Positions 10,353 to 19,958 of a stretch of DNA of 26,307 bases are shown piece by piece. Position numbers and translations under genes: made by a program. The DNA lies in IMG/VR virus record IMGVR_UViG_3300047366_000011, positions 1-26,307 of that record, one strand, 5' to 3'. Below the pieces are notes generated by a model that saw only the letters and a list, made by a program, of their open reading frames with translations, searched no databases and had not been told where the DNA came from. Within the stretch, counting starts at the first letter, position 1; each line of letters begins with the position of its first letter. The stretch is from a virus.

Positions 10353-10562
10353 TCATTTGTCCTCCGACCATCCTTCAGCCCTCATTGCTTCTTCTACATG
10401 TTTCAATGTAAATGAACGCCCATAGTGTGCCTCAACGGCAGTACGCACGTAGAAGACATCGCTATGGGGTATGTGGAGACGGTCTAATGTGTTAGTACGG
10501 ATGGCATTGTAGAATGCATCTAGTACATTGTCTGTGTATAGTTTTACGGATTTCTTTGCCAT
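10353..10562 (-). CDS. Small helical protein, first gene of the leftward operon
   Basis: The product from ATG 10562 is 69 residues (MAKKSVKLYTDNVLDAFYNA ... SFTLKHVEEAMRAEGW). An in-frame ATG at 10628 exists, but the segment between them lies inside the repeat-rich leader and lacks a ribosome site. The C-terminal half looks like a helix-turn-helix or small helical bundle and could bind DNA. It is the gene closest to the palindromic array at 10626-10739, so it is a reasonable candidate for a regulator acting on that array, which is inference only. Confidence 0.68.
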   Translation of the reverse strand: MAKKSVKLYTDNVLDAFYNAIRTNTLDRLHIPHSDVFYVRTAVEAHYGRSFTLKHVEEAMRAEGWSEDK

Positions 10563-10625
10563 TGTCAAGCACTTTCTGTGAAAAACACAGATATCGGGGC
10601 TATACAGGTTTTTATTAGGGTATGT

Positions 10626-10739
10626 CACTTAGGTGTACACTTAGGTGTATTTAACATCTAAATTCTAATGTCACTTAGGTGTACATTTAAGTGTATTTAT
10701 AATTTTACTAATAGACACTTTAGTGTATCACTGTTAGTG
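10626..10739. repeat. Array of six palindromic CACTTARGTG sites
   Basis: Six imperfect palindromes of about 10 bases lie at 10626, 10638, 10672, 10684, 10716 and 10729: CACTTAGGTG (three copies), CATTTAAGTG, CACTTTAGTG and CACTGTTAGTG. They come in three pairs with starts 12-13 bases apart, just over one helical turn. The array lies immediately downstream of a strong leftward promoter and upstream of the first leftward gene, so a multimeric repressor or activator array is likely. An iteron-type origin is the alternative. Confidence 0.8.
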
Positions 10740-10756
10740 TGCTTTAGTTATACATA

Positions 10757-10785
10757 ATTATACCAGAATGAGGCAATGCCGTCAA
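10757..10785 (-). promoter_or_regulatory. Consensus sigma70 promoter firing left (late operon)
   Basis: On the minus strand, TTGACG (10785-10780) is followed after exactly 17 bases by a perfect TATAAT (10762-10757). Transcription would start near 10750 and run through the palindromic array into the leftward structural and lysis operon. It is the best promoter match in the window and points to host RNA polymerase use. The close array suggests it is tightly controlled. Confidence 0.88.
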
Positions 10786-10843
10786 GCACTTTTTTTGTCT
10801 GGCACCATAGTTTTTCATTTTATAGTACCAGATACATCTAATG

Positions 10844-10860
10844 TGCCTAAAAAATAGGCA
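10844..10860. other. Short A-loop hairpin (TGCCTA/TAGGCA)
   Basis: A 6-bp inverted repeat with an AAAAA loop. It is not followed by a T run on either strand long enough for a confident terminator. It sits between the leftward promoter and a TATAAT hexamer, and may be structural or a weak operator. Confidence 0.4.
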
Positions 10861-10863
10861 GAT

Positions 10864-10886
10864 TGCACATTCCTTGTGCATATAAT
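10864..10886 (+). promoter_or_regulatory. TATAAT with adjoining inverted repeat
   Basis: TATAAT at 10881-10886 is immediately preceded by the inverted repeat TGCACA-TTCCT-TGTGCA (10864-10880). No good -35 hexamer exists 16-18 bases upstream, so this would need an activator, possibly bound at the inverted repeat. Rightward transcription from here would enter the control region. Weak candidate. Confidence 0.35.
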
Positions 10887-10988
10887 TACAACAGTTACCC
10901 TTGTGGTTAACACTCAATTTTACTGATCTGTGTATTTCTACATATACGTATACTACGTACGGGGGTGTGGCCCATGCCCGACCCCTTG

Positions 10989-11008
10989 TGTATCAACGTG
11001 TTAGCACA
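10989..11008. repeat. Second palindrome family, copy 1
   Basis: TGTATCAACGTGTTAGCACA, a 20-base imperfect palindrome (TGTRTYA...TARNACA). It matches the copies at 12227 and 14015, each outside coding sequence. Likely protein-binding site or transcript hairpin. Confidence 0.6.
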
Positions 11009-11105
11009 CTGACACAAAAAATGACTACTATCCGTCGTCGCTGGAACAATTGCGGTATCATATGCCCTGTCAAACCGTTGTTTTTATTAGATTATATGCA
11101 TATTC

Positions 11106-11132
11106 CGGTAACTGTTTTCCTATCAGTTACCG
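11106..11132. other. 9-bp inverted repeat
   Basis: CGGTAACTG at 11106-11114 and CAGTTACCG at 11124-11132 form a perfect 9-bp stem with a 9-base loop. No T run follows, so it is not a standard terminator. Operator or transcript structure are both possible. Confidence 0.5.
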
Positions 11133-11225
11133 CCAGCCATGCCGCGCATGATTGCACGATGCAGAAAACACGCGCGAAACACTAACGGCGGTGCATGAAT
11201 TGCAGCACTATACCCTATCCCTAAT

Positions 11226-11240
11226 GTTCCGCTTTTGTTC
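11226..11240. promoter_or_regulatory. Putative LexA (SOS) box, GTTC-N7-GTTC
   Basis: GTTC at 11226-11229 and GTTC at 11237-11240 are separated by exactly 7 bases, the direct-repeat box bound by alphaproteobacterial LexA. A matching box in the opposite orientation lies 20 bases away. LexA would keep nearby transcription off until DNA damage. Host LexA binding is inferred from sequence alone. Confidence 0.6.
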
Positions 11241-11259
11241 TTGTTCACATACACAATGA

Positions 11260-11274
11260 GAACAAAACGTGAAC
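11260..11274. promoter_or_regulatory. Putative LexA (SOS) box, GAAC-N7-GAAC
   Basis: GAAC at 11260-11263 and GAAC at 11271-11274 with exactly 7 bases between, the complement of the box at 11226. It would cover the start point of the leftward promoter candidate at 11281-11309. The two boxes are also arranged so that TTTTGTTCT (11233-11241) and AGAACAAAA (11259-11267) form an inverted repeat. Confidence 0.62.
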
Positions 11275-11280
11275 AACTAC

Positions 11281-11309
11281 TATCTAAAAATGCGTTGGTG
11301 TGGTGTCAA
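11281..11309 (-). promoter_or_regulatory. Candidate LexA-controlled leftward promoter
   Basis: On the minus strand, TTGACA (11309-11304, perfect) is followed after 17 bases by TAGATA (11286-11281), or after 16 by TTAGAT. The -10 is weak. The LexA-type box at 11260-11274 would span the start site. A transcript would run left through 500 bases of non-coding sequence towards the late operon. Confidence 0.45.
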
Positions 11310-11336
11310 CACAAATACACAAATAATCTGCCAAAA

Positions 11337-11351
11337 TGTCACGCGGTGACA
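11337..11351. repeat. 15-bp palindrome TGTCACSCGGTGACA, copy 1
   Basis: TGTCACGCGGTGACA flanked by AAAA on both sides, GCG centre. It lies 28 bases upstream of the -35 of the promoter for the gene at 11445. It is one of six copies between 11.3 and 14.5 kb. Confidence 0.85.
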
Positions 11352-11378
11352 AAATACAACATAAAGGCATTTTAGGCA

Positions 11379-11406
11379 TTGACGCCATATACCAGTCTGC
11401 TAATCT
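11379..11406 (+). promoter_or_regulatory. Promoter for the 11445 gene
   Basis: TTGACG at 11379-11384 and TAATCT at 11401-11406, spaced 16 bases. The start would fall near 11413, giving a short leader of about 30 bases to the ATG at 11445. Moderate match to host sigma70. Confidence 0.5.
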
Positions 11407-11444
11407 GTCTATATCAACAAACGTACATTGAAAGGTACAAACAA

Positions 11445-12164
11445 ATGACAAACGAAAACACAAATACAAACGCTGAAATTTACACCGCGCATTTTGCCGC
11501 GCCAATGATTGCCAAGGTAAAAGCACACGACAATGCCGATAAAAAATACGGCAAGCAATTTGCGCTTGCTATGAAACGCGACGACGCGCCAGACGTTATG
11601 TTGTATTGCTTGCAATCTGTTGAACGCGCCGATCAAAAGGCAGACGCGGTGGAAAAAGAAAAGAACGCGGCGCGTTTATCCAGTCTCACAAAGGATGGGC
11701 TGGCATGTCTGGCAACCCGTGAATTGCGTAATGAATACGGCGCTTTGCGTAAAATGATAAAAGACGGCGCAATGTCTGAAATGTCACGCGACGATATCAA
11801 GGCAATGCTGGCGACCATTGAAAAGGATATCACGTCATTCCGGTTTGCTTGTGGCCAAATATTCAAAGCACCAAAAACAAAAACACCGCCGCCAGCCAAT
11901 GCCGCAACAGATGAAACAGAAACAGACGCAACGCCAGCACAAAACGACGCGCCAGCCAATGCCGCGCCGATTGAACGCGCCGAATTGTTCGCGCAATTTA
12001 TGGATGCATGGAAAAATGCCGGTTTTGGTAATACCGCCGATTTTTGGGACTGGACAGCCAGTCAGGAAGCAGACAATGCTGGCACCGAAAAACAAGCGCA
12101 ACAAATAAAGGCAGACAAGGCAAACGCGCCAGCCTTGCCAGTGTTGCAATCAATGGCTGGATAA
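11445..12164 (+). CDS. Ala/Lys-rich protein of unknown function, moron-like
   Basis: The product from ATG 11445 is 239 residues; GAAAGG lies 10 bases upstream. An in-frame Met at 11379 would start inside the promoter. Residues 1-150 are mostly helical and charged, with no family I recognise. A Pro/Ala/Thr/Asp-rich linker spans about 150-185, and the last 55 residues include aromatic helices (LFAQFMDAWKNAGFGNTADF). Codon use favours GCG, GCC and CGC much more than neighbouring genes, suggesting a different origin. It stands alone with its own promoter and an intrinsic terminator and is bracketed by two 15-bp palindromes, as expected for a moron or an autonomously expressed regulator. The helical domain might bind DNA; that is speculation. 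Confidence 0.8.
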   Translation: MTNENTNTNAEIYTAHFAAPMIAKVKAHDNADKKYGKQFALAMKRDDAPDVMLYCLQSVERADQKADAVEKEKNAARLSSLTKDGLACLATRELRNEYGALRKMIKDGAMSEMSRDDIKAMLATIEKDITSFRFACGQIFKAPKTKTPPPANAATDETETDATPAQNDAPANAAPIERAELFAQFMDAWKNAGFGNTADFWDWTASQEADNAGTEKQAQQIKADKANAPALPVLQSMAG

Positions 12165-12179
12165 TGTCACCGCGTGACA
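12165..12179. repeat. 15-bp palindrome, copy 2
   Basis: TGTCACCGCGTGACA, CGC centre, directly after the stop codon of the 11445 gene and before its terminator. It is in opposite orientation to copy 1, so the gene is flanked by an inverted pair. Confidence 0.85.
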
Positions 12180-12384: not shown

Positions 12385-12399
12385 TGTCACCGCGTGACA
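12385..12399. repeat. 15-bp palindrome, copy 3
   Basis: TGTCACCGCGTGACA, CGC centre, in the leader of the 12430 gene. It is followed by further AAAATGACA repeats and an AGAGGAC ribosome site. Confidence 0.85.
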
Positions 12400-12908: not shown

Positions 12909-12923
12909 TGTCACGCGGTGACA
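12909..12923. repeat. 15-bp palindrome, copy 4
   Basis: TGTCACGCGGTGACA, GCG centre, in the leader of the 12941 gene, just before its AAGG ribosome site. Confidence 0.85.
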
Positions 12924-13391: not shown

Positions 13392-13406
13392 TGTCACCGC
13401 GTGACA
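13392..13406. repeat. 15-bp palindrome, copy 5
   Basis: TGTCACCGCGTGACA, CGC centre, three bases after the previous stop and just before the GGAG of the 13421 gene. No promoter is seen immediately upstream. Confidence 0.85.
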
Positions 13407-14484: not shown

Positions 14485-14499
14485 TGTCACGCGGTGACA
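14485..14499. repeat. 15-bp palindrome, copy 6
   Basis: TGTCACGCGGTGACA, GCG centre, seven bases after a stop and 13 bases before the AAAGGAG of the 14526 gene. It is the last copy in the window. Confidence 0.85.
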
Positions 14500-16008: not shown

Positions 16009-16144
16009 GCTATGGCACAAGGTGTCGCACTACTACCTCACACATGATGGCATAGAGATGCTTTTGTTTGCCTGTGTGTTCGGCTCTTTTGGCTGGATGG
16101 CCTATCATGTTATCATTGGAATTGTAGGGAGGATTATGGGATGA
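16001..16144 (+). CDS. Small membrane protein (47 residues)
   Basis: The translation begins MSKLWHKVSHYYLTHDGIEM and ends in a hydrophobic segment LLFACVFGSFGWMAYHVIIG of about 20-24 residues. One membrane pass is expected. Start and stop overlap the neighbours (GGAGG upstream; ATGA with the 16141 gene). Unknown role. Confidence 0.68.
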   Translation: MSKLWHKVSHYYLTHDGIEMLLFACVFGSFGWMAYHVIIGIVGRIMG

Positions 16145-16680
16145 ATAGATTTCTTATTGACCGCTACCCAGATGCTATCGCCAAGGCCATGTGTGACAAG
16201 CACATTGTCAAGATGCCGACTGAGGAAGCACAGATGTTGTCACACGTGTTGCATCATTACATGGGTGAAGAAGGTGAGACTATGGCAGAGTTCACGGCTG
16301 AGTTGGGTCTGGTAAATTCACCACCCGCACATGCCAAGCATCCCTGCACAGAGTGGGCGGCAGAGACACGGGCCAATTATCTGTTCAGTGTGGAGATGCT
16401 ACGTGCTATGTCAGAGGAATATACACACCGCTATGGCAAGACACACAAGTGTTCTTTGCTGTTGCCATTCTTCCGTGACTGTGCTAAACATATCCCACAT
16501 GGTTATCTCAGCAAACACCCGCAGTGTTTTGGCAAGGGCAATGACCATTTCAAGACAAGTGAGATATGGCCTATACAAGCATACCGCAACTACTACCGTT
16601 GGAAGTATCAGACAACAGAATGGTGCGGCAAGTACAAGCTGAGAGAGATACCACGTTGGTTGAAAGAGAGCATGACATGA
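16141..16680 (+). CDS. Conserved phage protein of the CDKHIVKMPTEEAQML type
   Basis: This 179-residue protein has MCDKHIVKMPTEEAQMLSHV near the start, then HAKHPCTEWAAETRANYLFS, SEEYTHRYGKTHKC and a C-terminal IQAYRNYYRWKY. I know this arrangement from T4-like cyanophages and marine podoviruses. It is usually left as hypothetical. The conserved His, Cys, Asp and Glu residues could form an active site. It may act on nucleotides or DNA, but I cannot assign it. It is translationally coupled on both sides by ATGA. Confidence 0.8.
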   Translation: MNRFLIDRYPDAIAKAMCDKHIVKMPTEEAQMLSHVLHHYMGEEGETMAEFTAELGLVNSPPAHAKHPCTEWAAETRANYLFSVEMLRAMSEEYTHRYGKTHKCSLLLPFFRDCAKHIPHGYLSKHPQCFGKGNDHFKTSEIWPIQAYRNYYRWKYQTTEWCGKYKLREIPRWLKESMT

Positions 16681-18492: not shown

Positions 18493-19050
18493 ATGTGGTG
18501 CTACAAAACGAACAAGTGGTTCTCTGGAAGAGAAATGAAAAATCACCCTGAGTATGAGGAGTGGCTGGAACAGGAGATGCAACACTACAAGTTGCATCAC
18601 ATATTCTGGTGTCGCTGGGATGAAAATAATCGCTGGTACTCACCGGCACAATGGATTCCAAATTTTTGGATGTGGTTTGCTGAAACAGCAGAGTACCGAT
18701 ATGATTGTGAGGGTTTCCGCTGGAAGATTGTACAGTTTGTGTGGGGAATACAGCACTTTATAGACGACTGCTTGACCATCCTTGAATGGGACAGACCACC
18801 CCACGCAGAACATCGTGGCCTATTCAAAGGTGATTGGGAAACCAAGTGGGGCTTTTGGGAGTACGTCTATTGTCGCACATTCCGAAGACCTTTGGACAGC
18901 CTACGTTTCTGGTTTCAAGAACGGGTATTGGGACAAGAGCCTATTGATGACCATCTAGGTTGTTACAGTTGGCCTAACTGCGACATAGACCCCAATGGAT
19001 GTCGCCATGCTATGGGAGATGATGTAGAATGTTACGGACACAGAGACTAA
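18493..19050 (+). CDS. Tryptophan-rich hypothetical protein
   Basis: The product from ATG 18493 is 185 residues. This start is chosen for its GGAGGAAGG 7 bases upstream; an ATG at 18469 would overlap the DUF932 stop as ATGA and add 8 residues. It holds about 17 Trp (9 percent) and many His, Cys and Arg, e.g. HHIFWCRWDENNRWYSPAQW. A cysteine-rich C-terminus (GCYSWPNCDIDPNGC) may bind metal. Not recognised. The end overlaps the integrase start by 22 bases. Confidence 0.72.
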   Translation: MWCYKTNKWFSGREMKNHPEYEEWLEQEMQHYKLHHIFWCRWDENNRWYSPAQWIPNFWMWFAETAEYRYDCEGFRWKIVQFVWGIQHFIDDCLTILEWDRPPHAEHRGLFKGDWETKWGFWEYVYCRTFRRPLDSLRFWFQERVLGQEPIDDHLGCYSWPNCDIDPNGCRHAMGDDVECYGHRD

Positions 19051-19958
19051 CAGACTTGGTAGACGACTACTACAAGTCCTATGATTACAGGAACTTACGT
19101 GATGAAACTAAGAAGCAGTATGAATACTTCATCAACGTAATGCTCAACACTGAGGTGGACGGACAGGCTCTGTCCACTCTCGACTACACGACAATGAAGA
19201 CACGTGTCGCAAAGGTTGCGTACAACGAATGGTGCGAGAAAGGTATTCACATGGCTAATCACATCATGTCGTCTGCCAGCATCGTATTTAATCACGGGCT
19301 GCGTATGGAACTGTGTACACTCAATCCTTTCGCTAACGTGCGTAGGAGGACCGCTGAGAGGCGTAAGACTGTTTGGGGTAGGGAGGATGTACAAAAGTTC
19401 TTAGACACTGCCTACGGCGATTTTAGCACCCGTAACATCGGTTTGATTGCACAGATGGCATACGAGTGGTGCCAGCGGCTAGGTGACATGCGTCTACTCA
19501 CATGGGATGCAATTGACTTCGATGCCAAGACGCTGACACTGGAGCAATCTAAGCGTAAAGCAGACGTACACCTGCCCATTTCAGATGATCTATGTGACAT
19601 GTTGACGCAACAACACGAAGACTTTGGCTTTCAGAAGTACGTGGCACCCCGTCCATACCCCATCAAGGGTGAGTACAGACCCTATTCACTGCAAAAACTA
19701 CCGTTACATGCACGTAAAGTCATGGAGGATGCGGGTATGTCAAGTGAATTGCGACTGTCTGACCTGCGGCGTACTGGTACAACTGAAATGGTCGAGGCCG
19801 GTGTCGGTATGGCACAAATAATGTCGGTTACAGGACATGCTAACCCAGCATCAGTGAAGCCATACATGAAAAATACTTTGAAAAGTGCAAATCATGCCTT
19901 GACGGAGAGAAAAATGCATGTTACAAGCAGTACAAGTGCCGCAAAGGAAGGTGTATAA
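19029..19958 (+). CDS. int: Tyrosine recombinase (integrase)
   Basis: This 309-residue enzyme has an N-terminal SAM-like DNA-binding domain (about 1-110) and a catalytic domain with R150 (WCQRLGDMRLLTW), a Lys in SKRK (K175 or K177), R247 (LSDLRRTGTTEM), H270 (GHANPASVKPY) and nucleophile Y279. The first His of the HxxR motif is replaced by Ser (S244), a change tolerated in several recombinases. It would integrate the phage into the host chromosome, so the phage is probably temperate. No attP or tRNA fragment was recognised beside it. It overlaps the upstream gene by 22 bases. Confidence 0.92.
   Translation: MLRTQRLTDLVDDYYKSYDYRNLRDETKKQYEYFINVMLNTEVDGQALSTLDYTTMKTRVAKVAYNEWCEKGIHMANHIMSSASIVFNHGLRMELCTLNPFANVRRRTAERRKTVWGREDVQKFLDTAYGDFSTRNIGLIAQMAYEWCQRLGDMRLLTWDAIDFDAKTLTLEQSKRKADVHLPISDDLCDMLTQQHEDFGFQKYVAPRPYPIKGEYRPYSLQKLPLHARKVMEDAGMSSELRLSDLRRTGTTEMVEAGVGMAQIMSVTGHANPASVKPYMKNTLKSANHALTERKMHVTSSTSAAKEGV

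Follow-up and report, generated by a model that had tools for sequence, protein, structure and literature searches.

Predicted inverted LexA boxes in the divergent control region of an HMO-2011-type marine podovirus

Among the closest described systems is that of the Bacillus phage GIL01, where the LexA protein of the host acts as the lysogeny repressor (PMC4551915, PMC6182141). GIL01 is comparable to the locus described here in being a temperate phage with host LexA boxes in its early promoter region and a lysogeny that depends on host LexA, although it is unrelated, does not integrate, carries boxes of the Gram-positive type and employs a helper, gp7. The boxes in our locus, in contrast, are of the alphaproteobacterial type, form an inverted pair and lie upstream of a predicted promoter rather than inside it, with no helper known. 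LexA-controlled phage genes were also described for coliphage 186 (tum), the CTX prophage and SPC32H, as cited in PMC9437464. The common element is that LexA sites in a phage tie phage genes to DNA damage in the host. In these three phages, LexA acts by way of an antirepressor or jointly with a repressor of the phage, whereas no gene for either was found in our locus. CtrA sites in alphaproteobacterial phages, linked to lytic deferment (PMC9437464), are a further case of alphaproteobacterial phages that co-opt a host regulator through operators in their control regions, but the regulator is a different one and the proposed trigger is the cell cycle instead of DNA damage. Dinoroseobacter shibae, a roseobacter, was furthermore reported to have putative LexA sites in its gene-transfer-agent cluster (PMC6473078). 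A literature search that combined SAR116, phage and LexA gave no relevant paper in the collection searched. HMO-2011-type phages are among the dominant phages of the sea, and the locus bears on the question of whether lysogeny is kept up in them with no recognisable repressor, and by what means.

The control region and its box pair

The window, by which we mean the whole stretch of DNA analyzed, is the 26,307-base virus record IMGVR_UViG_3300047366_000011. Its DNA polymerase shares 74% identity with that of the Puniceispirillum (SAR116) phage HMO-2011 and 67-68% with those of the roseophages CRP-345 and CRP-1. A partial DnaJ domain (CXXCXGXG), typical for the HMO-2011 group, is present in this polymerase A and the gene order is HMO-2011-like, the two features by which we assign the window to the HMO-2011-type podoviruses. 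These features and an integrase are shared with the described members (PMC9038755, PMC6918029); unlike the window, the isolates HMO-2011, CRP-1, CRP-2, CRP-3 and CRP-345 have no boxes in the control-region stretches that were read. The structural genes are transcribed leftward and the early and replication genes rightward, and both boxes sit between the two divergent gene sets in about 880 non-coding bases (10563-11444). No relatives of the first rightward early gene were found in a search for them. The annotated features are listed in Table 1.

Table 1. Features annotated in the window (strand "." where none applies)
Feature	Position	Strand	Remarks
First leftward gene (69 aa)	10353..10562	-	anchor for collecting control regions
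P_L, predicted leftward structural-gene promoter	10757..10785	-	TTGACG-17-TATAAT with TG extension
Family-conserved element CGGCGGTGCAT...TATACCC	11186..11220	.	directly left of the boxes
17-bp inverted repeat, 17-nt loop	11225..11275	.	hairpin -17.6 kcal/mol, z -5
LexA box 1 (predicted), GTTCCGCTTTTGTTC	11226..11240	+	pattern GTTC-N7-GTTC
LexA box 2 (predicted), GAACAAAACGTGAAC	11260..11274	-	minus-strand reading GTTCACGTTTTGTTC
Leftward promoter of the first-pass annotation	11281..11309	-	TTGACA at 11309-11304; unsupported
Palindrome TGTCACGCGGTGACA	11337..11351	.	copy 1 of 6, early region
P_R, predicted early rightward promoter	11379..11406	+	TTGACG-16-TAATCT; start site about 11413
First rightward early gene	11445..12164	+	without family match
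Tyrosine integrase	19029..19958	+	PHROG 1, E 1.7e-36; PF00589, E 2.3e-17

The two GTTC-N7-GTTC sites reported by the first-pass annotation were recovered at exactly the positions that it gave, and the window contains no other. Box 2 is inverted relative to box 1 with a start-to-start offset of 34 bp. The count of two sites is by itself unremarkable because two or more were reached in 21 of 100 shuffles (expectation 0.81 per 26 kb). Among 1500 simulated windows, 0.3% had two sites within 50 bp, and not one had an inverted pair at a distance of 15-50 bp. The inverted repeat that spans the pair is accounted for by two inverted copies of one site. A hairpin-forming word, AACTGTT...ATCAGTTACC, occurs further left (11104-11131) and is kept in most relatives, including HMO-2011 and CRP-1.

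With the first leftward gene as the anchor, 80 viral contigs were gathered, giving 49 control regions after dereplication. Twenty matches to GTTC-N7-GTTC were found in 14 of these regions against 0.57 expected, while each of the other spacers from 0 to 15 gave 0-4 matches and the 124 kb of flanking DNA gave none for GTTC-N7-GTTC. All except one of the twenty sit 573-718 bp from the anchor gene. The enrichment of spacer 7 corresponds to a Poisson P of about 3e-24, a guide figure in which relatedness among the genomes is ignored. A search by DNA similarity for isolate phages that bear the boxes gave no match above chance.

Both boxes are unchanged in the three closest genomes (the window, L088 and L137), and the sequence soon diverges completely to the right of box 2. 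A recombination boundary is observed just right of box 2, from window position 11274 onwards in comparison with L088 and L137; the early cassette is swapped at this boundary, with the boxes and the leader on their left staying in place. Eight relatives form a second set, which retains the left box as GTTCNNGTTYTGTTCT; on the right they have a series of half-site near-repeats of 11 bp, which in L115 and L131 are in tandem and have an iteron-like look. L110 and L112 have their two sites in direct instead of inverted orientation. The spacing of the sites is not constant (34, 46 or 58 bp), nor is their number, with a single site or more than two in several genomes. The direct orientation in L110 and L112, together with the change of the right flank, argues that the sites and not the hairpin are what is kept.

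Likeness to host SOS operators and recurrence in a second phage group

The first-pass annotation had recognised the sites as LexA boxes of the alphaproteobacterial kind, an identity borne out by their spacing, half-site and spacer sequence. Each box has two GTTC half-sites in direct repeat with seven bases between them. In the upstream DNA of 30 lexA genes from alphaproteobacteria, 16 matches have spacer 7, against 0-1 for the other spacers. Scored with a matrix made from alphaproteobacterial lexA-promoter sites, most phage boxes rank within the top 1-16% of AT-rich GTTCN7GTTC sequences; the weakest, at 25%, is box 2 as flanked in L088. A pattern covering the phage variants, GTTCNNSTTTTGTTCT, was found 73 times in 172 alphaproteobacterial genomes compared with five times for the reversed control. 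At least ten of 30 examined loci of this pattern adjoin imuA (L203, L223, L224 and L231), umuD (L211 and L212, with L225 and L226 judged by the same N-terminal motif), lexA (L213) or a Y-family polymerase gene (L204). The pattern that covers both boxes hence occurs upstream of alphaproteobacterial SOS genes. The sole exact copy of GTTCTCGTTTTGTTC in 385 genomes lies at imuA-imuB, genes that were named by reading their translations. The two exact 16-mers of the window itself occur in three genomes at no recognised SOS gene, and GTTCCGCTTTTGTTCT (box 1) was found in two alphaproteobacterial genomes. Since the boxes are non-chance and resemble chromosomal SOS operators, binding by the LexA of the host is very likely.

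When the inverted pair was used as a search pattern, 28 viral stretches matched. In the twelve that are of the HMO-2011 type, the pair sits 586-674 bp away from the anchor gene; a further fifteen come from a different group (L315-L318, L320-L322, L325, L326, L328, L331, L334, L335, L338 and L339), and L324 apparently represents a third context. The terminase of this second group is 26-30% identical to that of the window and about 55% to those of Vibrio podoviruses such as KIT05 and VPp1, and its adenosylcobalamin-type ribonucleotide reductase is close to that of CRP-3. The group is hence referred to as cobavirus-like, a label coined here.

Members of the cobavirus-like group carry arrays of three to seven boxes in a divergent region, with 69 spacer-7 matches within 300 bp compared with 0-11 for the other spacers. 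The arrays mostly keep the 34-bp inverted offset of the window, and the sequence between their boxes is unrelated to that of the window. A strong promoter, TTGACA-17-TATAAT, points toward the terminase genes. Seven members were scanned, and in five of them it starts at a distance of 156-164 bp from box 1; the other two are drawn in the opposite orientation and their promoter faces the other way. The boxes lie about 105-115 bp from this terminase-facing promoter. No integrase was found in the group on contigs of up to 36.7 kb, where one may be missed because these contigs are fragments. That two marine phage groups with no relation to each other have predicted inverted pairs and arrays of alphaproteobacterial LexA boxes in their control regions is, at the sequence level, a new observation. 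It is also conceivable, though rather less likely than not, that such pairs and arrays arose independently among marine podoviruses, in two or more unrelated groups of which one has no integrase found, as a sensor of the host SOS response that times phage genes in prophages and non-prophages alike.

Promoters, lysogeny genes and competing readings

The -35 element of P_R is located about 104 bp to the right of box 2, and a comparable promoter occurs 161-194 bp from box 1 in five relatives (L097, L101, L115, L131 and L137). In all box-bearing relatives scanned, P_L comes close to the consensus, and its TATAATTATACCAG block was also read in HMO-2011. It had been proposed that box 2 would cover the start of a leftward promoter with its TTGACA at 11309-11304. 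This candidate was rejected: its score of 10.0 (TTGACA-19-GATAGT) is at shuffle level (mean of maxima 11.1), and the TTGACA motif is deleted in L088 though both boxes are kept there. The well-supported leftward promoter is the predicted P_L and not the one at 11309. No well-scoring sigma-70 promoter overlaps the boxes when judged by the E. coli-type consensus, which promoters of other consensus may escape. LexA usually, though not universally, represses by overlapping its promoter.

A tyrosine integrase gene is present in the window as the first-pass annotation had said, and the absence of a phage CI repressor was likewise upheld, with no CI, S24 or HTH_3 protein detected. No repressor family is among the matches listed for 46 window proteins, and seven relatives with boxes likewise gave none of the three types, as did a 53-kb relative that carries boxes and an integrase. 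All scorable HMO-2011-type relatives have an integrase, eleven with boxes (the window included) and 25 without. The first-pass annotation had itself named loss of the boxes from relatives with integrase as a result that would speak against its proposal, and such relatives often lack them. Integration at tRNA-Met was shown for CRP-3 (PMC6918029), the only proven integrator, which has no boxes in the stretches read. Taken with the boxes of the cobavirus-like group, where no integrase was found, the box-free integrase-positive relatives indicate that boxes and integrase are not coupled across phages, and SOS control consequently need not mean prophage induction. Of the earlier proposal of a prophage induced by DNA damage through host LexA, the SOS-type sites are retained; the prophage part is weakened, as CRP-3 and most integrase-positive relatives are box-free.

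A scan with two peptide patterns found the HMO-2011-type polymerase in one GTDB species genome only. It is on a Rhodobiaceae MAG contig (L171, PAHC01000002.1; 64% polymerase identity) that represents either a host link or mis-binning, and no prophage was seen apart from it. Candidate attP sites sought by a tRNA T-arm signature were discarded, as the matches fall in coding regions only.

We propose that the boxes would be operators for the host SOS repressor LexA within the divergent early/late control region of the phage. As long as the cell is undamaged, the inverted pair about 100 bp upstream of P_R would be occupied by two LexA dimers and phage expression would be held back; after DNA damage, RecA would trigger the self-cleavage of LexA and the phage would be released. 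Looping, a road-block or a promoter of non-consensus type are possible ways of acting from such a distance. The boxes stay invariant while their right flank is replaced, which is in favour of this switch. The enrichment of spacer 7, the likeness to chromosomal SOS operators, the direct-orientation variant of L110 and L112, the recurrence in the cobavirus-like group and an integrase with no CI, S24 or HTH_3 protein found speak for it too. Against it are the positions of the boxes outside the core of every well-supported promoter (P_L being about 440 bp to their left), the box-free state of most integrase-positive relatives and, in the stretches read, of the five isolates, and the single GTDB genome with the polymerase. 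As a whole explanation, a host-LexA operator switch is moderately probable, and control of phage transcription by LexA is probable to a similar degree; that a resident prophage enters lytic growth once LexA is released is a more tentative proposition, which we would not quite expect to hold. SOS control of the phage is graded as likely and prophage induction specifically as plausible, and the findings suggest that the host's own damage alarm helps to decide when the genes of these ocean phages switch on. If true, host LexA operators would be a concrete switch that responds to DNA damage, which matters in sunlit water, and would explain how some members do without a CI-type repressor. The finding also predicts which metagenomic phages would be expected to respond to mitomycin C or UV.

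LexA might also bind the boxes and gate lytic infection instead of a prophage, so that early or late genes are delayed until damage caused by the phage triggers the SOS response, or so that cells already damaged are infected faster. The larger arrays of the cobavirus-like group near a terminase-facing promoter, with no integrase found, are consistent with such gating, as are the mostly box-free integrase-bearing relatives and the rarity of the polymerase in GTDB. All eleven scorable box-bearing HMO-2011-type genomes do have an integrase, however, and the fragmentary contigs of the other group may hide one, and we consider lytic gating rather unlikely. A phage-encoded regulator that shares the LexA half-site and spacing by coincidence is much less probable. 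The iteron-like tandem near-repeats in L115 and L131 would suit it, and other repeated palindromes in the phage imply a phage DNA- or RNA-binding protein, but similar 15-16-mers are found at SOS genes of host chromosomes, unrelated phages have the sites too and neither an HTH_3 nor an S24 protein was found among the proteins searched.

The strong fold of the inverted repeat, with its 17-nt arms, could point to an RNA or DNA hairpin (an attenuator, processing site or origin element) of which the box pattern is a by-product. This reading is very improbable, as it leaves the strict spacer of seven unaccounted for and does not fit the variable number, distance and orientation of the sites; an RNA hairpin as the primary function was rejected on the direct-orientation pairs of L110 and L112 and the lack of an Rfam match. 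A chance match, for which one could cite that two sites in 26 kb fall within the shuffle range, is practically negligible, being already refuted by the comparative enrichment, even before its P value allows for relatedness, and by the recurrence in the second group. The preferred reading remains the host-LexA operator switch.

Other repeats in the control and early regions

Five copies of a 14-bp repeat, ACACTTAGGTGTAT, are found at 10625-10728 between P_L and the first leftward gene, and similar words, CACTTAAGTG, were observed in HMO-2011, CRP-1 and CRP-345. Their arrangement resembles an array of operators serving the late promoter.

Exact copies of the palindrome TGTCACGCGGTGACA, on either strand, continue from the one in Table 1 to 12165-12179, 12385-12399, 12909-12923, 13392-13406 and 14485-14499. 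The relatives have their own words in this role, namely GTCCGACAGCGGAC in HMO-2011, GTCCAACGTTGGAC in CRP-345 and TGTCAA-TTGACA in L127. A phage regulator may use these copies as operators of the stoperator kind or as leader hairpins. GTCCN6GGAC palindromes in HMO-2011, CRP-1 and CRP-345 were considered as substitutes for the boxes and dropped because they are dispersed intergenic repeats of which the window has its own version.

Finally, a match to Pyr_excise (Pfam, pyrimidine dimer DNA glycosylase) was observed among the window proteins, most likely from the gene at 16141-16677 (PHROG 624), which would place a UV-repair gene in a phage that bears SOS boxes.
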